The position numbers were made by a program, and so were the translations under genes. 49,868 nt of DNA from Rhodovarius sp. (lineage in GTDB: Bacteria > Pseudomonadota > Alphaproteobacteria > Acetobacterales > Acetobacteraceae). Shown piece by piece: positions 6,321 to 49,498 of the stretch. The notes beneath the pieces were generated by a model, which was given only the letters and a program-made list of their open reading frames with translations, made no database searches and was not told the DNA's origin. The stretch spans positions 1 through 49,868 of the forward strand of contig JANWYF010000213.1 of the NCBI GenBank assembly GCA_025057055.1, written 5' to 3'. Every line of letters begins with the position of its first letter. The first letter of the stretch is position 1.

Positions 6321-7565
6321 TCATCCCGGAATCAGCACCCCCACGGTAGCACCGGTCATGCAGCAGGCGAGGGTGGCAGCCCACAGGCTGGGCCAGCCGA
6401 GGGCCAGGATCTCACCCCGTCGTTCGGGGCAGAGCGCGGTCAGCCCGCCCAGCATGATGCCGACCGAGCCGATATTGGTGAAGCCGCACAGCGCATAGGT
6501 CAGGATCAGCCGCGACCGCTCCGACAGACCCGCCCCGCCCGACCGCGCGAGGTCGAGGTAGGAGACGAACTCGTTGACGACGAGCTTCACGCCGAGGAAC
6601 TGGGCGATGACGGGCGCCTCCGCCCACGGCACCCCCATCAGCAGCGCGAGCGGCCGGAACAGCCAGGCCGCGACCTGCTGCAGCGTCACGCCAGCCAGCG
6701 GCAGGAGCGCGATGTTGACCAGCTCGACCAGCGCGACGAAGACGATCAGCATCGCCATGATGGAGAGCAGCAAGGACAGGCCGTCCTGCACGCCGGCCAC
6801 CAGCGCCTCCATGCTGCTGCCATGCCGCCGCGGTGCCGCCATGGCGGCCGGGTCGGGCAGGGCATCCGACGGGGCGGCGGGAGGTTTCATCAGCAGCGCC
6901 GCGAGCACCGCCGCCGGGGCCGAGATGAGGGAGGCCGCCAGCAACTGCCCCGCCGCATCCGGCACCACGGGCGCGATCAGCGTGGCATAGAGGACCAAGG
7001 TGTTGCCCGAGATGGTGGCGAGCCCGGCCACCATCACGGTGAAGAGCTCCGCGCGGGTCAGCCCGGCGATCCAGGCGCGGATCAGCAGCGGCGCCTCCAC
7101 CATGCCGACGAAGATGTTGGCCGCCACCGCAAAGCCCGCGGCCCCGCCCAGCCCGAAGCCGCGCGAGAGGCCGCGGGCGAGCAGCCCGACCAGGAAGGGC
7201 AGCACCCGCCAGTGATAGAGCAGGGCGGACAACGCCCCGACCAGCAGCACCAAGGGCAGCGCCTGGAAGAAGAGGATGAAGCTCGCGCCCGGCTGGACCT
7301 CCTGGAACGGCAGGGGGGCCCCGCCCAGATAGCCGAAGACGAGCGAGGTGCCCGCGACCGTCGCGCGCGCCAGGGCCTCCACCCCGCGCCCGATCAGGCC
7401 AAAGCCCGCCCGCAGCGGCGGCAGATGCAGCAGCAAGGCGGCAAGCCCCAGCAGGGCAGCCAGCCCAGCCAGGACGATGCGCGGGGCGATGCGCCGGCAG
7501 CCGCCCGAGACCCAGGCGATCAGGCACAGCCCGCAGAGCCCGGCGAGCGAGGCCGCCTGGCTCAC
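6321..7565 (-). CDS. Concentrative nucleoside transporter (NupC/CNT family)
   Basis: 414 residues, nearly all hydrophobic with about ten membrane segments, so an inner-membrane transporter. The C-terminal half has CNT hallmarks: the segments around [31 protein letters not shown] and LAPERRGEI-like [14 protein letters not shown] proteins import nucleosides by Na+ or H+ symport. The start is a GTG at 7565 that overlaps the rmuC stop by 4 bp (GTGA); no ATG lies nearby in frame, and upstream sequence is only the shadow of rmuC. Placement next to purH suggests a purine-salvage link, but that is inference. Confidence 0.88.
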
Positions 7566-8779
7566 GCCGACCCTCCGGGCAGCGCCTGCGGGGGCGGTTC
7601 GAACTCCACCGCCTCGATCCGCTCCCCCGCGCGCTTGATCTTCTCGCTCGAGGTCTCGATCTGCGAGATGTCCCTCTGTGCCTGGTCGAAATGCCGGCGC
7701 AGATTGGCCACGCGCTCCTCGAGGCGGTGCACATCCTCGAGCAGCAGCGCCACTTCCTTCTGGATGCGCTGCGCCTCGGCCCGCAGGCGGACATCGCGCA
7801 TCAACGCCCGCATGCTGGTCAGCATCGCCCACAAGGTGCTCGGCGAGACGACATGGACATTGCGCCGTGCCCCCTCGGTCAGCACCTCGGGCAATTCCTT
7901 GTGCAGGTCGGCATAGATCGCCTCGGAGGGGACGAAGACCAGCGCACCCTCCGCCGTCTCGCCGGGGATGATGTAGCGTTCGGCCACGTCGCGCAGGTGC
8001 TTCTGCACATCCAGCCGCAGCTGGCGCAGCGCCTGGGCGCGCGCCGCATCATCGGCGGCGTCGCGCAGCGCGATCCAGGCTTCGAGCGGGAACTTGCTGT
8101 CGATGGCGACCGGCCCCGGCGGATCGGGCAGGCGGATCAGGCAATCCACCCGCCGCCCGTTGGAGAGGCTGTGCTGGAAGGCGTAGCTGCCGGGCGGCAG
8201 GCGGTCCTGGATCAGGCTCTCGAGCTGGGTCTCGCCGAAGGCGCCGCGGCGCTGCTTGTTGTCCAGAATGGCCGAGAGCGCATTCACCTGCCCACCGAGC
8301 GCCTCGATATGGGCGCGCGCGGCATCGATCACGGCCAGGCGTTCCTGGATCGCGGCCGCGGATTGCAGGGTCTTTTCGGTCTGCTCCTGCAGCTGGCGGA
8401 CGACGCGTTCGCCCTGGCTGCCCAGGCTTGCCTCAAGACGCGCATTCTGCGCCGCGATCGCCTCGGTCAGCGCCTTCTCCTGCTGGGCCAGCCGGCCCAT
8501 CTGCTCGAGCAGGGCGGTGTTGAGGGCCCGCGTCTGCTCCATCATCTGGCTGGTCAGACGCTCTGTGGCGTCGGCCAACGCGCGGGAGAGTTCGCGCTCC
8601 TGCGCCGCCAGCCGCTCGGCCTGCTGCGCCTGGGCGCCGGCGAGCAGATCCAGCCGGGCCGCGATCTGCGCCACCGGATCGGCCCCCGATCGGCGCAGCA
8701 GCAGAAGCACGATGACGATGAGAAGCAGCGCCGAGAAGGCCGCCAGCCCCACCACCAGCACGGGTGCCTCGCCGCTCAA
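7562..8779 (-). CDS. rmuC: DNA recombination protein RmuC
   Basis: 405 residues. An N-terminal membrane anchor (about residues 7-28, [20 protein letters not shown]) is followed by a long coiled coil (about 35-140, rich in Gln/Glu/Ala/Leu heptads). The conserved RmuC nuclease-like domain comes next (about 160-330), with [18 protein letters not shown] and AIDSKFPLE. RmuC limits inverted-repeat-mediated rearrangement in E. coli. It overlaps purH upstream and the transporter downstream by 4 bp each. Confidence 0.92.
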
Positions 8780-35296: not shown

Positions 35297-36178
35297 TCAG
35301 CCCGGAACGCCGGGGGGCAGGGCCAGCAGATCGCAATGCGGCACCAGGATCGACAGCCGCCCGGCCGCGATCTGCGCCTGCCGCGCCGCGGCCCACTCCT
35401 GCAGCCGGCGGGACGCCCCGCGTTCCCAGCGCGCTGCCGCCTCGAGCATGCCCTCGGTCAGGGCCTGGGCCAGGGGGCGGTCGCCGCGGCGGATCCGCCA
35501 GGGGCTCGGCGCTGTCAGGACGCGGTAGCCATGGGCCGTGAAGGCGCGGGCGAGCACGGCGGGCGCGGCATCGCCCAGCGCCCGCCCGCCCAGGCCCTTG
35601 TCGCGCGCCTGATCGCGGGCGAAGCCGCGGCGCAGATAGGCATCGGCCGGATGCGGGGGGGTGAAGCGCGCCGGGCCTGCGGTGTTCAACGCCGCGTAGA
35701 AGGGCAGGCGGCGCGAGGCACAGGCGGCGGCCATCGCCTCCACCCAATCCGCGCTGACCAGATCGCACAGCGCGCTGCAGACCACCGCATCCGCCTGCGC
35801 AAGCGGCAAGCCGTGCGGGGCCAGGGCGAGGTTGGCGACCAGCCCCTCCACCCGCCAGGCCCCGCCGGGGGCATGCACCAGCAGGGTGCGCCGGTTCGGG
35901 AAGGTGGCGGGAATGCCCTGTTGCTCCGCCCGCTCGGCGATGGTGGAGAAGGCTGCCTCCAGCAGCGCGGCATCGGCATCGACCAGCAGCCAAGCCTGCG
36001 CCCGGCCGATCAGGGGTGCCAGCCAGCGCGTCAGTGCCCCCGTCCCGGCGCCGAGGTCGAGCAGCCGGGGCCTGAGCGGCAAGGCATCGCGCAGCGCCAG
36101 CGCCAGCCCGAGATCGCGCGCCCGGGCATCCTGTGCTTCGCGCAGCTCCAGCCATTCGGCAGAGAAGCTCTCGCTCAT
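35297..36178 (-). CDS. Class I SAM-dependent methyltransferase (cluster member)
   Basis: 293 residues. SAM-binding motif I is LLDLGAGTGALTRWL (Gly-rich loop 41-47) with an acidic residue in LLVDADAALLE. Later segments LVANLALAPHGLPL and DAVVCSALCDLVSADW fit motifs II-IV. The C terminus is unusual for small-molecule methyltransferases (AARQAQIAAGRLSILVPHCDLLAL). It overlaps the GT4 gene by 4 bp. As the last gene of the five-gene cluster it would methylate the product of the upstream enzymes. Confidence 0.82.
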   Translation of the reverse strand: MSESFSAEWLELREAQDARARDLGLALALRDALPLRPRLLDLGAGTGALTRWLAPLIGRAQAWLLVDADAALLEAAFSTIAERAEQQGIPATFPNRRTLLVHAPGGAWRVEGLVANLALAPHGLPLAQADAVVCSALCDLVSADWVEAMAAACASRRLPFYAALNTAGPARFTPPHPADAYLRRGFARDQARDKGLGGRALGDAAPAVLARAFTAHGYRVLTAPSPWRIRRGDRPLAQALTEGMLEAAARWERGASRRLQEWAAARQAQIAAGRLSILVPHCDLLALPPGVPG

Positions 36179-37206
36179 GCGACGCGTTCCAACTCGGCAG
36201 CGAAGAGGGCCGCGCGGTCCTCCCAGCGCGGCAGACGTTGCGCTGCGGCCCAGGCGGCATCGGCCATCCGGGCGCGCAGCGCGGAATCGAAAATGACCCG
36301 GCGCATGGCGCGCGAGAGGCTGGCGGCATCACCGGGCGGGGAGAGCACGCAGGCCTCTTTCGGCACCACCTCGGCGATCGCGCCACCGGCCGTGATCGCG
36401 CAGGGCAGGCCGCGGGCCAGCGCCTCGGCCGCGGCCATGCCATAGCCCTCCCAGTAGGTGGCCAGGGCGAACAGATCCGCCGTGTCATAGGCGGCGGCGA
36501 GCGCCGGGCCCGAGAGTTCACCGGCGAAGGTCACCCGCTGCGCGATGCCGAGCTCCTCCGCCAGTGCCTGGAGGCCGTCGGCATGCACCGGATCGCGCGC
36601 CGCCCCGACGATGGTCAGCCGCCAGTCGAGGTCGGTTAGCCGTGCCAGGGCGCGCAGCAGCACGTCATGGCCCTTGCGCGGCACCAGCGCGCCGACCGAG
36701 AGGATGCGGCAGACCCCATCGGCCGAGCCGCGGGCGCGCGGCGCCGGGTCGGTGCCCGGCTCGACCACCCCGATGCGGTCGGGATCGACCGCGAAATCCT
36801 TGGCCAGCCGCTCGGCCGTCAGGCGCGAGGTGGCAATGAGCCGGGGCAGCCGCGGCAGCATCGCCGCCTCGATCGCGCGCAGCCGCTCGGCATCGAGCCC
36901 CCTCTCGAGCGCCGTCGGGTGATGGATCAGCCCGACCGCGCGGCGGGCGATCAGCTCCCCCAGCAGCGGCCGGAAGGCGGGCAGGCCGAGGCCGTCCACC
37001 ACCGGCAGCCGCTCCGGCCCGAGGCGTTCCAGCGCGGCCCGCGCCGCGGCCTCGGCCGCGGGGTCGGGCAGCGGATGCCGCCCGGCGAGCTCCAGCACCT
37101 CCACGTCATGGCCGAGCGCGCGCAGCCCTGCCACCATCCGCTGGTCATAGAGGTAGCCGCCTGAGAGGGTCTCGAAGGGGGCGGGCACCAGCAGGGCGAT
37201 CTTCAC
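36175..37206 (-). CDS. Glycosyltransferase family 4 (GT-B fold)
   Basis: 343 residues. GT-B enzyme: N-terminal KIALLVPAPFETLSGGYLYDQ donor-side glycine loop; C-terminal VEPGTD (149-152), SVGALVPRKGHDVLLRA and the EX7E motif in YWEGYGMAAAEALARGLP (Glu253, Glu261). Retaining transferase using a nucleotide sugar. It overlaps the pterin-synthase-like gene and the methyltransferase by 4 bp each. Embedding between small-molecule enzymes argues for glycosylating a soluble metabolite rather than a cell-wall polymer. Confidence 0.88.
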   Translation of the reverse strand: MKIALLVPAPFETLSGGYLYDQRMVAGLRALGHDVEVLELAGRHPLPDPAAEAAARAALERLGPERLPVVDGLGLPAFRPLLGELIARRAVGLIHHPTALERGLDAERLRAIEAAMLPRLPRLIATSRLTAERLAKDFAVDPDRIGVVEPGTDPAPRARGSADGVCRILSVGALVPRKGHDVLLRALARLTDLDWRLTIVGAARDPVHADGLQALAEELGIAQRVTFAGELSGPALAAAYDTADLFALATYWEGYGMAAAEALARGLPCAITAGGAIAEVVPKEACVLSPPGDAASLSRAMRRVIFDSALRARMADAAWAAAQRLPRWEDRAALFAAELERVA

Positions 37207-37604
37207 GCCACCGGCCCCTCATAGGCGGCCCAGGCGAGGTGGCTTTCGCGCAGCGTGACCTTGATCGAGGCGACCCGCGCCCCGCCGGGCCCCATCCGGC
37301 CATCCTTGCAAGCCTCGGCGAGCAGGCCGTGGATATAGGCGCAGAGATATTCGGTCGTGGTGTTGCGCCCGGCGAAGATGGGCTCCTCATCCAGGTTGCG
37401 GTAGTCGAGCGTGGCCAGGATGTGGCGCAGCTGCTCGCGGGCGATGCCGATGTCGATCAGCAGATCCTGCTCATCGAGCGTGGGGGAGCGGAACTCGGCC
37501 TCGACGATGAAGGTCGCGCCGTGCAGGCGCTGCGCCGGGCCGAAGACGGCGCCGCGGAAGCTGTGGGCGACCATGATGTGATCGACGACGGTCAGGCTGA
37601 ACAT
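37203..37604 (-). CDS. Degenerate 6-pyruvoyl/6-carboxy-tetrahydropterin synthase-fold protein
   Basis: 133 residues, the PTPS/QueD length. The T-fold order is preserved: MVAHSF (His14), RLHGATFIVEAEF (His28), LIDIGIAREQLRHIL, ATLDYRNLDE, TTTEYLCAYIHGLLAEA, KVTLRESHLAW (Glu120). By comparison with QueD the third zinc histidine of the HGH motif is Ala30, the catalytic Cys position is Ala24 and the His of the LDH motif is Tyr68. Asp67 and Glu120 remain. It overlaps the MDR gene by 13 bp and the GT4 gene by 4 bp. The family fold is clear, but ordinary PTPS or QueD chemistry is unlikely. Confidence 0.8.
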   Translation of the reverse strand: MFSLTVVDHIMVAHSFRGAVFGPAQRLHGATFIVEAEFRSPTLDEQDLLIDIGIAREQLRHILATLDYRNLDEEPIFAGRNTTTEYLCAYIHGLLAEACKDGRMGPGGARVASIKVTLRESHLAWAAYEGPVA

Positions 37605-38569
37605 CCGGTGCTTTCCTGTTCGCAGGTGACGACGGGACAGAGGGCGGGTTCGGTCAGCAGCGCGCCGTAGCGCGCCGGCAGCTCGGCGAAGGGCACCACG
37701 GGGCCGAGCAGCATATCGAGCCTCTCATCGGCCAGCAGCTCGAGGGCCAGGGCCATGCGCTCGGCATGGCTGCGCCGGCCGCGCATGGCGGGGGCGATGC
37801 TGCCCACCTGGGTCGAGATCAGGCGGAGGCGCTTCTGGTGGAAGGCCTCGCCCAGGGGCAGGGCGGGGCAGTCGGTGCCGAACCAGCTCGCCTCGATGAT
37901 CCGGGCCTCGAAGGCGGCGCGGGAGAGGGCCAGGGCGAGCCCCGCTTCGGTCGCGCTCGCATGCAGGATCAGCTCCTGTTCCGCCGGCGCCTCCTCTGGC
38001 GCGGCGAAGCGGGCACCGAGCGTCTGCGCGATGGCGGCACGGCCGGGGTCGAGGTCGGTGACGGTGACCCGCATCCCCGGAATCTGGGCGAGCAGGAAAG
38101 CGGCGAGCAGCCCGACCACGCCCGCTCCGATGACCAGCGCGCGCTCGCCCGGAAGGGGTTGCGCATCCCAGAGCGCATTGAGCGCCGTCTCCATGTTGGC
38201 GGCGAGCACGGCGCGGCGTGTGGGCAGCGCCTCGGGCAGGGGGGTGCAGAGCGCTGCCGGGGCCAGGAAGCGTTCCTGATGCGGGGCGAGGACGAAGACG
38301 CGCCGACCCGCCAGCGCCCCGTCCTCGGCCAGACCGACGGCGCAGTAGCCGTATTTGACGGGGAAGGGGAAATCCCCCTCCTGCAGGGGAGCGCGCATCA
38401 GCGCATATTGGGAGGGGGGGATGCGCCCCTGCCAGACCAGACGCTCCGTCCCGCGGGAGATCCCGCTGGCCAGCAGCCGCACCGTCACCTCATCCGGCCC
38501 GCGCGGGGGCAGCGGCGTCTCGCGCAGCTCCGCCCGGCCGGGGCCGGTGATCCAGAGCGCCTTCGGCAT
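37592..38569 (-). CDS. Medium-chain dehydrogenase/reductase without visible zinc ligands (BchC-like N terminus)
   Basis: 325 residues. The Rossmann motif is GAGVVGLLAAFLL, preceded by AANMETALNALWD. The N-terminal segment ASGISRGTERLVWQG resembles that of BchC and related MDR proteins. Neither the catalytic Cys/His-Glu zinc set nor the four-cysteine structural lobe is seen, so it is probably a zinc-independent NAD(P)-dependent oxidoreductase despite the usual family name. The ATG at 38569 overlaps the RibD-like stop by 1 bp (TGATG); a GTG three bases upstream is the alternative start. Confidence 0.85.
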   Translation of the reverse strand: MPKALWITGPGRAELRETPLPPRGPDEVTVRLLASGISRGTERLVWQGRIPPSQYALMRAPLQEGDFPFPVKYGYCAVGLAEDGALAGRRVFVLAPHQERFLAPAALCTPLPEALPTRRAVLAANMETALNALWDAQPLPGERALVIGAGVVGLLAAFLLAQIPGMRVTVTDLDPGRAAIAQTLGARFAAPEEAPAEQELILHASATEAGLALALSRAAFEARIIEASWFGTDCPALPLGEAFHQKRLRLISTQVGSIAPAMRGRRSHAERMALALELLADERLDMLLGPVVPFAELPARYGALLTEPALCPVVTCEQESTGCSA

Positions 38570-39324
38570 CACGCCCCCGCCAGGGCCGGTCGCGCCCGGC
38601 CCACCGCAATGTCGAGCAGCAGGTCGGGGGCGATCTCGTGCACGCTCCAGGACAGGCGCAGCCCATCGGCGATGCGCTCTGCCTCCGGCAGGGCGAAGGC
38701 CGGCCGGCCGCTGCCCAGGATGAGCGGTGCGACGGTCACATGCAGCCGATCGAGCAGCCCTGCCATCAGGAAGCGCGAGACGGTCACGCCGCCCCCCTCG
38801 ACAAAGATGCGCCGGAGCCCGCGCGCGGCCAGGGCATGCAGCAGGGCGGAGAGGTCAAGCCCCTCCGGGCCTTCGGGCAGGGCCAGCACCTCTGCCCGGC
38901 CGTGCCGGCGCGCCGCGGTCGCACCGCGCCCGACCACGAGCAGGGTGGGCGGGCCCTCGCGGAAGACGCGAAAGCCGCTGCCGAGCCGTGCCTTGGGGTC
39001 GAGCACCACCCGCACCGGGCTCGGCCCCTCCACCAGGCGGGTGGTCAGCTGCGGATCATCGGCGGCGATGGTGCCCGCCCCCACCACCACGGCGTGGCAG
39101 AGCGCGCGCAGCCGATGGGTATGGAGCACATCGCCGGGCCCGCCGATCCAGCGCGACGCTCCGTTGCGCGTGGCGATGCGCCCATCCAGGGTCTGCGCCA
39201 GGCGGCCGATGACGATGCAGCCATCGGCCCCGATCGGCGGGGCGAAGAGAGGCGCAAACAGCGGGCCGGGTGGTGCCTCGCCCGCCAGGATCGCCCGCCA
39301 GGAAGGGTCATCGCCGCCATCCAT
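38569..39324 (-). CDS. RibD C-terminal reductase-domain protein (no deaminase domain)
   Basis: 251 residues from ATG 39324; the in-frame upstream stretch is Arg/Ser/Pro-rich and rejected. Dihydrofolate-reductase-like RibD_C fold: RLAQTLDGRIATRNGASRWI, HTHRLRALCHAVVVGAGTI, ADDPQLTTR, RRIFVEGGGVTVSRFL and VTVAPLILGSGRP. RibD reductases reduce ribosyl-aminopyrimidines with NADPH. The deaminase half of true RibD is absent, so this is a paralog for another pyrimidine- or pterin-like substrate. First gene of the five-gene cluster, 58 bp downstream of the FlgN-like gene's end. Confidence 0.85.
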   Translation of the reverse strand: MDGGDDPSWRAILAGEAPPGPLFAPLFAPPIGADGCIVIGRLAQTLDGRIATRNGASRWIGGPGDVLHTHRLRALCHAVVVGAGTIAADDPQLTTRLVEGPSPVRVVLDPKARLGSGFRVFREGPPTLLVVGRGATAARRHGRAEVLALPEGPEGLDLSALLHALAARGLRRIFVEGGGVTVSRFLMAGLLDRLHVTVAPLILGSGRPAFALPEAERIADGLRLSWSVHEIAPDLLLDIAVGRARPALAGA

Positions 39325-39382: not shown

Positions 39383-39787
39383 CTAGATGCGGGCCGAGAC
39401 GGCGAGCGCCGGCGTCTGGCGCGATGTCCGCCTTCCGCCCTGGGCGCCATAGCCGGGGGGGCGGGCATGCGGCAGAGCCGCACCGGCGATGGTCTCGATC
39501 ACGCGCGACTGCAGGGCGATGGCGTGTTCGAGCAGCCGCCGGTTCTCCGCCCCCAGGGCGGAGAGGCGGGCGTGCAAGGCGGCGGTCGCCGCACGCGCCG
39601 CCTCGCCCTCGGCCCGCACGCCCTGGCGCGCCGCGGCAGCAAAGGCCTGGGCGAAGGCGTCGGTGGCCTGCATCTTGGCGGTGGCAAGAGCGGCCGCGCG
39701 CGTCAGATCAAAGGCGGCCAGGGCCTGGTTCTCGGCCTCCAGCGCAGCGGCCAGCCGCTCTCCGGCGGCGATCACGGCCTCCATCAT
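39383..39787 (-). CDS. FlgN-like flagellar protein (putative export chaperone)
   Basis: 134 residues, mostly alpha-helical and Ala-rich with coiled-coil potential (ERLAAALEAENQALAAFDLT...LHARLSALGAENRRLLEHAIAL), ending in a disordered tail. The pattern and position after flgI and the rod-binding gene fit alphaproteobacterial FlgN-like proteins, chaperones for hook-associated proteins. The ATG at 39787 overlaps the upstream stop by 4 bp. Similarity to FlgN is by pattern and context, not by a strict motif. Confidence 0.6.
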   Translation of the reverse strand: MMEAVIAAGERLAAALEAENQALAAFDLTRAAALATAKMQATDAFAQAFAAAARQGVRAEGEAARAATAALHARLSALGAENRRLLEHAIALQSRVIETIAGAALPHARPPGYGAQGGRRTSRQTPALAVSARI

Positions 39788-40116
39788 GGGCTCACCTCCT
39801 GCGGGACGGATGGGGGTTGGCGTTGCAGCTGCGCCAGCAGCAGGGCAGCGATGCCGATGCCGCCGCGCGCGGCCATGCGTTCGGCGAAGGCTTCGGTCAG
39901 CATGGGGCGCCAATGCTCCTCGGCCGCACCGCCGCCGAAGGGGCCGCGGGCCTGGCCGATCCCGGCGAAGACCGGGGAGAGCAGCTGGGCCAGCACCTGC
40001 GCCTCGAAGCGCTGGGCCAGGGCGCGCTGGAGCGCGGGGTTCTGCTGAGCGCGCGGGGCGGAGGGCAGGGGCGGCGTGGCAGGCGGGATGGGGGCAGCGG
40101 GCAGTGGCATCGGCAT
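39784..40116 (-). CDS. Rod-binding protein (FlgJ N-terminal domain type)
   Basis: 110 residues: a Pro-rich start, then a FlgJ-like domain with ALAQRFEAQVLAQLLSPVFAGI, GGGAAEEHWRPMLTEAFAERMAARGGIGIA. This matches the rod-binding half of FlgJ (EAVFLNQMLKSM...FRSMLDEQYAKSIA-type pattern). The muramidase domain of enteric FlgJ is absent, as is usual in alphaproteobacteria. Assists rod assembly in the periplasm. Overlaps flgI by 1 bp (TGATG) and the FlgN-like gene by 4 bp. Confidence 0.82.
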   Translation of the reverse strand: MPMPLPAAPIPPATPPLPSAPRAQQNPALQRALAQRFEAQVLAQLLSPVFAGIGQARGPFGGGAAEEHWRPMLTEAFAERMAARGGIGIAALLLAQLQRQPPSVPQEVSP

Positions 40117-41258
40117 CAGCGTAGCTCCAGCTCGGCCTGCAGGGCACCGGCGGCCTTGATCGCCTGCAGGATGGTGATGAGGTCGCGCGGGCCCACGCCC
40201 AGGCTGTTCAACCCGCGCACCAGCTCGGCCAGCGTCACACCGCCCTCGAGCACGCCCAGCCGCCGCTCGCGCTGGTCGTCCACCTCGATCTGGGTGCGCG
40301 GGACCACCACCGTCTCTCCGCCGGCGAGCGGGTTGGGCTGGCTGACCTGGGGCGTCTCGGTGATGCGGATGGTGAGGTTGCCCTGGGCGATCGCCACCGT
40401 GGAGACGCGCACATGGGCCCCCATGACGATGGTGCCGGAGGCCTCCTCGATGACGATCCGCGCCGGCTGGTCCGGGCTGATGCGCAGCTGCTCGATATCG
40501 GCAAGCAGCGCCACCGGATCGCGCCCGCGCAGCGCGATGACGACCGTGCGCGGGTCGGTGGCCCGAGCCGTGCCGGCGCCCGCGGCCCGGTTGACGGCAT
40601 CGGCCACGCGGCGGGCAGTGGTCAGGTCGGGGTTGCGCAGCGACAGCCGGAGCTCCTCCCGCCGGCCGAGCTGGTAGGGCACGGCCCGTTCGACGATGGC
40701 GCCGGAGGCGATGCGGCCCGAGGTGGGCACACCGCGCTGGATGCTGCCGGCCGCCCCCCGCGCGGCGATGGCGCCGGTCGCCACCGGCCCCTGGGCCACC
40801 GCATAGACCTCTCCGTCGGCGCCCAGCAGCGGCGTCACGAGCAGCGTCCCACCGGTGAGGTTGGTCGCATCGCCGAGCGCCGAGACCGCGACGTCGATGC
40901 GGCTGCCGGGCTGGGCGAAGGCCGGCAGATGGGCGGTGACCATGACCGCCGCCACATTGCGGGTATCGAGCCGCAGCTCGTGATCACGCGTGTTGACGCC
41001 GAGCCTCTCGAGCATGCCGATCAGGGTCTGGCGGGTGAAGACGGCATTGCGCAGCCGATCCCCGGTGCCCGGCAGGCCGACCACCAGGCCATAGCCCACC
41101 AGCTGGTTGTCGCGGATGCCCTCGATGTCCGCGATGTCCTTGATGCGCACGGGCTGCGCCGCAGCCCCTGCCGCCGCCGAGGCGAGCAGCAGCAGCACCG
41201 CCAGCGGCCGGGCGGCGCCCCAGAGTTTCAGGGAGAAGTAAAGCTTCGCGCGCAACAT
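40116..41258 (-). CDS. flgI: Flagellar P-ring protein FlgI
   Basis: 380 residues with a signal peptide (about residues 15-35, PLAVLLLLASAAAGAAA). Highly typical FlgI body: RIKDIADIEGIRDNQLVGYG, LVVGLPGTGD, LTGGTLLVTPLLGADGEVYA, GRIASGAIVER, NPDLTTARRVADAVN and the terminal GVTLAELVRGLNSLGVGPRD. Forms the peptidoglycan-embedded ring around the rod. The start at 41258 is placed at the first Met of a leader with a normal signal; upstream in-frame sequence is the divergent promoter region. A consensus sigma-54 promoter lies about 65-80 bp upstream. Confidence 0.97.
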   Translation of the reverse strand: MLRAKLYFSLKLWGAARPLAVLLLLASAAAGAAAQPVRIKDIADIEGIRDNQLVGYGLVVGLPGTGDRLRNAVFTRQTLIGMLERLGVNTRDHELRLDTRNVAAVMVTAHLPAFAQPGSRIDVAVSALGDATNLTGGTLLVTPLLGADGEVYAVAQGPVATGAIAARGAAGSIQRGVPTSGRIASGAIVERAVPYQLGRREELRLSLRNPDLTTARRVADAVNRAAGAGTARATDPRTVVIALRGRDPVALLADIEQLRISPDQPARIVIEEASGTIVMGAHVRVSTVAIAQGNLTIRITETPQVSQPNPLAGGETVVVPRTQIEVDDQRERRLGVLEGGVTLAELVRGLNSLGVGPRDLITILQAIKAAGALQAELELR

Positions 41259-48686: not shown

Positions 48687-48766
48687 GTTGATGGCGCGTA
48701 AAAGCGATGGACAGCACACGCTTTGGTTGTATCATGGGCTCAGCGGCAACCAGCAAGGTTTCCCCC

Positions 48767-49498
48767 ATGCGCATCCTCCTCGCCGAAGATGACCGGACGA
48801 TCGCCAAGGGCATCACCCATGTCCTGAAACAGGCCCGGATGGTCGTGGATACCGCCGAGACCGGGGCCGAAGCGCTCGAGCTCGCCAAGCTCTACGACTA
48901 TGATGCCATCATCCTCGATGTCATGCTGCCCGACATCGAGGGGTTCGAGGTGGTCCGCCGTCTGCGCCACGCGCGGCGCGATGCGCCTGTCCTCATGCTC
49001 TCCGCCCAGTCGCGGCCCCAGGCCAAGGTGCGCGGCCTGCAGGCCGGTGCCGACGACTATCTCGCCAAACCCTTCGATCCCGAGGAACTGATCGCCCGCC
49101 TGCAGGCCATCATCCGCCGTTCCCGCGGATTGAGCCATTCCCGCATCGACATCCACGGCATCACCATGGACCTCGCCGCGCGGGAGGCGCTGGTCAATGG
49201 CCGGCCGATCAACCTCACCGGGAAGGAATACGCGATCCTCGAGCTCCTGGTGCTGCGCCGTGGCGCGGTGCTGTCCAAGGAAAACTTCCTCGACCACCTC
49301 TACGGCGGCATCGACGAACCCGACGCCAAGATCATCGACGTCTTCATCTGCAAGCTGCGCAAGAAGCTCGCCCAGGCCGGGGTCGAAAACCTGATCGGCA
49401 CGGTCTGGGGCCGCGGCTACATCGTGCGCGATACGCCGCCCGCGCGCCAGACCACGCCCGCCGCCGCGCGGCCGATGGTCGAAAGCCGCGTCGCATAA
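48767..49498 (+). CDS. ctrA: CtrA-type response regulator (OmpR/PhoB family)
   Basis: 243 residues from ATG 48767 (MRILLAEDD). Receiver domain: acidic pair Asp8/Asp9, phosphoacceptor Asp51 (ILDVMLPD) and Lys101 (LAKPF). The winged-helix output domain contains LTGKEYAILELLVLRRG and KIIDVFICKLRKKL and ends in VWGRGYIVRD, extremely close to Caulobacter CtrA in the DNA-contact region. CtrA controls cell cycle and flagellar genes in alphaproteobacteria. A CtrA paralog cannot be excluded, as the receiver is more diverged than the output domain. The C-terminal tail is Pro/Ala-rich. Confidence 0.85.
   Translation: MRILLAEDDRTIAKGITHVLKQARMVVDTAETGAEALELAKLYDYDAIILDVMLPDIEGFEVVRRLRHARRDAPVLMLSAQSRPQAKVRGLQAGADDYLAKPFDPEELIARLQAIIRRSRGLSHSRIDIHGITMDLAAREALVNGRPINLTGKEYAILELLVLRRGAVLSKENFLDHLYGGIDEPDAKIIDVFICKLRKKLAQAGVENLIGTVWGRGYIVRDTPPARQTTPAAARPMVESRVA

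Follow-up and report, generated by a model that had tools for sequence, protein, structure and literature searches.

What does a run of five overlapping genes in Rhodovarius sp. (GCA_025057055.1) make, and from which precursor? The window analyzed here is the entire contig JANWYF010000213.1 (49,868 bp; C112 in our labels, where C, L and G stand for contigs, loci and genomes) of a draft genome (3.07 Mb, 251 contigs, completeness 97.5%). Between positions 35297 and 39324, five consecutive open reading frames (ORFs) on the minus strand encode a RibD_C reductase (RED), a medium-chain dehydrogenase/reductase (MDR), a PTPS-fold protein, a GT4-type glycosyltransferase (GT) and a methyltransferase (MT). 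This layout, described in the original prediction, was reproduced from the sequence, with successive ORFs overlapping by 1, 13, 4 and 4 bp. The overlaps recur in relatives and are thus not due to chance, and because of them we infer that the five genes are translated as a single unit. A reduced, glycosylated and methylated pterin- or lumazine-like product had been predicted for the unit. A conserved unit decorating a GTP-derived compound of the 2-amino-4-oxopyrimidine type is indeed plausible, but the entry point in that prediction is probably wrong. On balance, we lean towards a cluster that branches from the riboflavin precursor 2,5-diamino-6-ribosylamino-4(3H)-pyrimidinone 5'-phosphate (DARoPP) and leads to a glycosylated, methylated aminopyrimidine or pteridine.

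The five genes form a conserved and widespread cluster. A collection of species genomes scanned with the PTPS protein gave at least 80 loci, and among the matches listed we grouped 58 as Acetobacteraceae-like (L002-L058 and L081). All five families occur together in 51 of them. Five of the seven incomplete loci (L011, L019, L037, L047, L048) have a contig end at the RED position, and the remaining two (L056 and L057) are without MT. Within this listed group, RED and MDR overlap in 50 of 52 loci, GT and MT in 48 of 55, PTPS and GT in 26 of 58, and MDR and PTPS in only 11 of 57. The other 22 listed loci, from Chromatiaceae, actinobacteria and others, contain all five genes in 8 cases and MDR-PTPS-GT-MT in 12. 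By profile search, PTPS-IV, the subfamily to which the PTPS-fold protein belongs, was found in 45 from 385 alphaproteobacterial genomes, every E-value being below 1e-44, and in 16 from 396 genomes of the phylum to which the Nocardiopsis genome G385 belongs (ten with E <1e-32, six weaker). In a sample of 44 alphaproteobacterial loci, with the window's own genome left out and family matches taken at 100 bits, PTPS is present in 44, MDR in 43, GT in 42, MT in 38, RED in 35 and all five in 30. Plasmids carry the genes too, since the PTPS protein matches 20 of 72,556 plasmid records and all five genes are present in 6 of the 13 plasmid regions read. The gene-neighborhood search proposed in the original prediction therefore found the five families together, rather than apart, in most related genomes of both samples.

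Some loci contain additional genes. In L033, L042 and L049, two small genes, antitoxin-like and PIN-domain-toxin-like as judged by eye, lie between PTPS and GT, and the spacing is similar in other loci of Roseomonas metagenome-assembled genomes. An mdoH-type membrane glucosyltransferase adjoins the core in L090 and L099 (Methylosinus and Neorhizobium plasmids).

FGPAQ is given as the signature of PTPS-IV (COG0720) in passages of PMC5445326, and the window protein reads FGPAQRLHGA. Among 147 aligned members (two gaps), Gly22 and Ala24 are kept in 145, Pro23 in 144 and Gln25 in 142, and Phe21 is kept in 80/80 PTPS-IV members. The third-ligand position is Ala in 144 of the 147, with two gaps and a single His, in the weak sister L198. 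The window protein has none of the motifs of the other subfamilies: for PTPS-I/QueD (CxxxHGH) it reads AQRLHGA, with Cys27 and His33 replaced by Ala and His71 by Tyr; for PTPS-II of biopterin synthesis (CxxxxxHGH), Gly stands in for the Cys and HGA for HGH; for PTPS-III of folate (ExxHGH) it reads QRLHGA. The closest solved structure is 3d7j, SCO6650 (E 7.8e-46).

The L198 sister protein (genome G467, PTPS at 7547-7984) reads FGPATRLHGH, with all three zinc-ligand His but no catalytic Cys, and matches to RED, MDR and GT occur in its locus as well. Five further actinobacterial genomes gave PTPS matches as weak as this one.

Residues were compared over 148 aligned rows with E. coli QueD as reference, in which we take Cys27 and His71 to be catalytic, His16, His31 and His33 to be zinc ligands, and Glu110 to anchor the pterin. 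His16 and His31 are kept in 146 rows (two gaps), Asp70 in 85 and Glu110 in all 148. Cys27 is replaced by Ala in 146, His71 by Tyr in 139, and His33 by Ala in 145, being His in one. With replacements at one zinc ligand and at both catalytic residues, PTPS-IV is, as judged from its residues, not a canonical PTPS or QueD, but binding of a pterin- or pyrimidine-type ring is still plausible. The analysis does not support dihydroneopterin triphosphate as the substrate of this enzyme, as it is for PTPS or QueD, given the loss of Cys27, His71 and His33 and the lack of enrichment of GTP cyclohydrolase I (GCH I) nearby (see below). A queuosine role was also rejected: although this is the sole PTPS-fold gene found in the genome, the QueD residues are absent.

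A place of PTPS-IV in cofactor F420 synthesis was considered as well, since an excerpt of PMC5041015 lists it as F420-related in one sentence that refers to unpublished work, with no data. A search limited to the window's genome found no CofE (PF01996) there, while being positive in three archaeal controls. We rejected this possibility as extremely improbable.

Which enzyme would then deliver the precursor? The 44 alphaproteobacterial loci (mean length 18.4 kb) were compared with 40 control regions (mean 19.9 kb), placed by hand at round coordinates, with no random generator, in 30 of the same genomes. The models of creatininase, YceI and response regulator were built from tested neighborhoods and favor those loci; the models of GTP cyclohydrolase II (GCH II), CDP-alcohol phosphotransferase, cytochrome b561 and FolE do not come from the 44 loci. 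GCH II at 60 bits or more was found near the cluster in 18 of the 44 loci against none of the 40 controls. Seventeen score at least 100 bits and have the residues Cys54, Cys65, Cys67 and Tyr105 of E. coli RibA, the copy in L127 being degenerate, and RED is present in all 17 loci with intact GCH II. FolE, searched with a model from one sequence, was found in 1/44 loci and 1/40 controls, and tblastn agrees, with a single match in the cluster neighborhoods (L141). With no enrichment, GCH I was rejected as the linked first enzyme, which is most likely GCH II. The link was already hinted at in passages of PMC5445326, where PF00925 and PF01872 are placed near PTPS-IV. The first-step enzyme that the original prediction missed in the window would be GCH II rather than I, and no GCH II was found in the window.

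The same counts bear on a GCH I route, in which dihydroneopterin triphosphate supplied from elsewhere would be the substrate of PTPS, with reduction, glycosylation and methylation left to the remaining enzymes. FolE was searched by Pfam in 43 of the 45 PTPS-IV-bearing alphaproteobacterial genomes, leaving out the least complete (G053 and G064), and is present in 39 of the 43, as well as in the window's genome. The PTPS fold keeps the pterin-anchoring Glu, and according to an excerpt of PMC13259868, cyanobacteria have pterin glycosides and a 2'-O-methylmonapterin was proposed in Agrobacterium. However, the QueD residues are replaced family-wide, GCH II and not FolE is enriched near the cluster, four cluster-bearing genomes have neither FolE nor FolE2, and, as far as we can infer, RED has no expected role in such a route. 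We therefore regard it as unlikely.

In actinobacteria, 12 of the 22 loci yielded a GCH II, always with the three Cys. Seven of these proteins have Met105, and all seven loci contain a creatininase-family gene (216-255 bits) and no RED at 50 bits or more. Four have Tyr105, all accompanied by RED and by no creatininase, an absence that means little in L197, a contig of 3.8 kb. In L077, GCH II has Leu105; the creatininase match there is borderline (52 bits), and RED is absent. Work on SCO6655, a GCH II gene that is presumably near SCO6650 in Streptomyces coelicolor, reportedly revealed that a change of Tyr to Met makes the enzyme stop at the formyl compound. According to an excerpt of PMC9478397, BrbF (SMc02977), of the creatininase family, deformylates the cyclohydrolase intermediate to DARoPP in riboflavin synthesis. 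Creatininase was found near the cluster in 8/44 alphaproteobacterial loci and 1/40 controls, with a model built from such loci. Five alphaproteobacterial loci (L118, L124, L144, L146, L147) have both a Tyr105 GCH II and a creatininase; the two are not mutually exclusive. Two lineages thus appear to arrive at DARoPP along separate routes, an indication that the branch starts from this compound. Since the species are related, however, the counts do not represent independent events.

The best PDB match of RED is 6p8c, a DARoPP reductase. Of 108 family rows, 106-107 retain the residues that correspond in the alignment to Arg184, Asp200, Leu204 and Arg207 of E. coli RibD, and the constant residues specific to RED include Gln155, His179 and His181. 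It is the second RibD_C gene of the genome, the other RibD being on contig C233, and consists of the reductase domain only, with no N-terminal deaminase found (TIGR00326, 110 bits against a cut-off of 156). The partner MDR had been described as zinc-less, and the alignment of 127 family members to E. coli IdnD bears this out. We take Cys40, His65, Glu66, Cys93, Cys96, Cys99 and Cys107 of IdnD to be zinc-ligand positions; positions 40, 65, 66, 93, 96, 107 and 153 are matched in 0/127 members, with the alignment near Cys40 being uncertain, and the Cys99 column has Cys in 80/127, the window MDR not being among them. A fold search gave tied matches with sorbitol, xylitol, idonate and other dehydrogenases, the nearest folds including arabinitol dehydrogenases. 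Because of these ties, we did not name a substrate from the fold.

We suggest the following scheme for the branch from DARoPP. GCH II would open GTP to give DARoPP, joined by the creatininase-family deformylase in cases of a cyclohydrolase that goes no further than the formyl stage; in the organism of the window, GCH II (C245) and creatininase (C44) would act from elsewhere in the genome. Archaeal and fungal reductases reduce C1' of DARoPP, and RED would likewise reduce the ribosyl group at this position. The zinc-less MDR could then oxidize C2' or rearrange the side chain. PTPS-IV may grip the 2-amino-4-oxo-pyrimidine ring via its conserved Glu and perform a step free of the zinc site, most likely isomerization or ring closure, and GT and MT would decorate the product. 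The scheme is supported by the pocket residues and nearest structure of RED, by the conservation of the five genes together with the GCH II linkage and the pterin-anchoring Glu kept in every row, and by the seven-gene runs of three small genomes described below.

RED is related to DARoPP reductases and GCH II is linked in other genomes, which could also mean that the unit supports production of riboflavin or a secreted flavin, with RED as a second RibD-type reductase. However, the genome has a separate riboflavin locus on C233, with RibD beside RibBA (whose GCH II domain is without the zinc cysteines) and a riboflavin-synthase-like ORF read by eye, and riboflavin synthesis requires no MDR, PTPS, GT4 or methyltransferase. 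We consider this explanation very improbable.

Elsewhere in the window's genome, a GCH II with intact residues is present on C245, FolE on C1 and FolK on C238. The genome has four creatininases, the C44 copy scoring 297 bits against the cluster-linked model and the others 183, 165 and 71. RibBA and the long intact GCH II lie at L083 (1477-2604) and L082 (1417-3444). A stand-alone enzyme of this kind might be the GTP-opening enzyme of S. meliloti, which had still to be found according to an excerpt of PMC9478397. In L200 (4727-5512), next to the GCH II of the window's genome, an OmpR-type response regulator overlaps the long GCH II frame on the opposite strand. The same regulator family occurs near the cluster in 10/44 alphaproteobacterial loci against 1/40 controls, with a model from such loci, and has a match in the window at 48692-49495.

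The four genomes in which genome searches found neither FolE nor FolE2 (G161, G229, G259 and G337) all have FolK. In G161, G259 and G337, FolP, FolB and FolK lie side by side. These three genomes are of 1.4-1.6 Mb, with a G+C content of 26-28% at the cluster locus, and carry creatininase-MDR-PTPS-GT-MT-RED-GCH II in one run on mixed strands. FolB uses dihydroneopterin. With FolB and neither FolE nor FolE2, the three genomes must obtain their pterin by means other than GCH I, and the cluster is a candidate for supplying it. Completeness here is 94-98%, two of the genomes share a genus, and the FolE comparison covered PTPS-IV-bearing genomes. In such a GCH I-free route, RED would reduce C1' of the ribosyl group and the polyol-dehydrogenase-like MDR would oxidize C2', the two redox steps together giving a 1-deoxy-ribulosyl-type intermediate, the kind that GCH I produces through an Amadori rearrangement. 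Ring closure would then fall to the T-fold PTPS-IV, which is missing the usual zinc site. Starting from GCH II plus the deformylase, these enzymes would yield 7,8-dihydroneopterin phosphate, which would then be glycosylated and methylated, and would feed FolB, FolK and FolP in some small AT-rich alphaproteobacterial genomes. We put this route forward only tentatively, as possible rather than expected. The window's genome has FolE, so the cluster is not needed for folate there.

Several observations weigh against the DARoPP branch. The folds of MDR define no substrate. Searches of the window and of the 58 listed Acetobacteraceae-like loci (3.6-20.4 kb each) found no GCH II and no creatininase, which makes the GCH II link indirect for the window. 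The alphaproteobacterial GCH II adjacent to the cluster may be the sole working copy of the cell, and its proximity could reflect riboflavin genes as such. RED is absent nearby in 9/44 alphaproteobacterial loci, some of them near contig ends, and in the Met105-type actinobacterial loci; it is not an obligatory local partner. Two Streptomyces plasmids (L091 and L093) and two contig loci (L065 and L072) have the PTPS gene with no partner-family matches. Finally, the branch does not explain the recurrent membrane-type neighbors, which are CDP-alcohol phosphotransferase, cytochrome b561 and YceI, with flippase-like proteins elsewhere.

These neighbors raise the possibility of a lipid-linked or exported envelope compound with the pyrimidine or pterin moiety as its head group. 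In the alphaproteobacterial loci, CDP-alcohol phosphatidyltransferase was found near the cluster in 13/44 against 0/40 controls, cytochrome b561 in 9/44 against 0/40, and YceI in 12/44 against 0/40 (the YceI model coming from the same loci). A flippase-like protein is present in 6 of the 22 distant listed loci and 5 of the 13 plasmid loci but in 0/44 alphaproteobacterial ones. Sulfatase-family and FkbM genes also occur near the cluster, although in alphaproteobacteria they are not clearly enriched (5/44 against 1/40 and 6/44 against 1/40, respectively). The families of this envelope compound, like the accessory families of other lineages in general (save one GT2 and the response-regulator matches), were found neither in the window nor in the 58 listed Acetobacteraceae-like loci. 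Since the accessory families vary by lineage, they may serve in tailoring or transport rather than in the core. We consider an envelope compound quite improbable and keep the branch from DARoPP as the preferred explanation.

The features of the window are given in the table. The best Pfam matches of MDR and MT are under the cut-offs. AlphaFold modeled both proteins with confidence (mean pLDDT 93.4 and 96.2, respectively). In fold searches the MDR model matches the full-length MDR dehydrogenase fold and the MT model, by Foldseek, class I methyltransferases, with only generic class I enzymes found for MT.

Table. Positions of the five genes and of the PTPS-IV motifs in the window.
Feature	Position	Strand	Basis
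RED, stand-alone RibD_C-type reductase	38569..39324	-	PF01872, 142 bits, over the Pfam cut-off
MDR, zinc-ligand-less medium-chain dehydrogenase/reductase, BchC-like and polyol-dehydrogenase-like	37592..38569	-	Family models, fold, ligand positions
PTPS-IV, T-fold protein whose metal and catalytic site is degenerate	37203..37604	-	PF01242, 80 bits, over the Pfam cut-off
Codons of the PTPS-IV signature FGPAQ	37530..37544	-	Sequence; signature named in passages of PMC5445326
HGA codons replacing zinc-binding HGH	37515..37523	-	Sequence
GT4-type glycosyltransferase, GTG start, EX7E motif (EGYGMAAAE)	36175..37206	-	PF00534 (Glycos_transf_1), 106.5 bits, over the cut-off
MT, class I S-adenosyl-L-methionine-dependent methyltransferase, family unassigned, N-terminus WLxLREPxDxxAR	35297..36178	-	DLGAGTG motif, alignment, model

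RED is preceded on its strand by genes for FlgI and a rod-binding-domain protein and by a short unassigned gene, which ends 58 bp upstream of the start of RED; downstream of MT, a gap of 79 bp leads to a DUF3108 gene. The flagellar run (FlgI and rod-binding protein) occupies 39383-41258, and an FlgI-family gene is found within 4.5 kb upstream in 27 of 41 listed Acetobacteraceae-like loci. A flagellar link was rejected since distant loci have other neighbors, and we take the FlgI adjacency as an inherited position.

The subfamily PTPS-IV has long been listed, with no function demonstrated in the passages of the papers cited here. A functional study of the cluster was not found in the titles and abstract starts of the open-licence literature, which does not establish its absence from print. 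If DARoPP is drawn on, a hidden branch of riboflavin or pterin metabolism would exist on alphaproteobacterial, gammaproteobacterial and actinobacterial chromosomes and on plasmids, and the labels '6-carboxytetrahydropterin synthase' and 'zinc-binding alcohol dehydrogenase' would be wrong in these loci. The GCH I-free pterin route, if true, would fill a hole in the folate pathway of some small genomes. The extended cluster, the logic of GCH II and creatininase, and the folate hole are worth following up.

Among known systems, SCO6650 of Streptomyces coelicolor (3d7j) aligns with the window protein over residues 1-130 and has the same degenerate site, but is actinobacterial; it is reportedly without PTPS activity and without zinc. 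For MDR, the top NCBIfam model is that of the bacteriochlorophyllide dehydrogenase BchC (TIGR01202 bchC, 52.7 bits; next HpnZ, 38.4), yet this is far under the equivalog cut-off of 291. BrbF shares the creatininase family with the extended cluster, but the riboflavin role was shown for BrbF only, and the four creatininases of the window's genome lie outside the window. A further system is the PTPS-IV neighborhood of PMC5445326 (2017; cluster node 62, 561 sequences). Its consulted passages name no MDR, GT4, methyltransferase, creatininase or pathway, and label PF00925 as GTP cyclohydrolase I/FolE2, while by its Pfam description PF00925 is GTP cyclohydrolase II. They place PF00925 and PF01872 near PTPS-IV, as GCH II is near the cluster in many of the relatives studied here; in the window, the RibD_C gene RED (PF01872) is adjacent, but there is no adjacent GCH II (PF00925), which lies on another contig. 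The FGPAQ signature is shared, and the window holds a core-only member of this published, functionally unsolved gene neighborhood.

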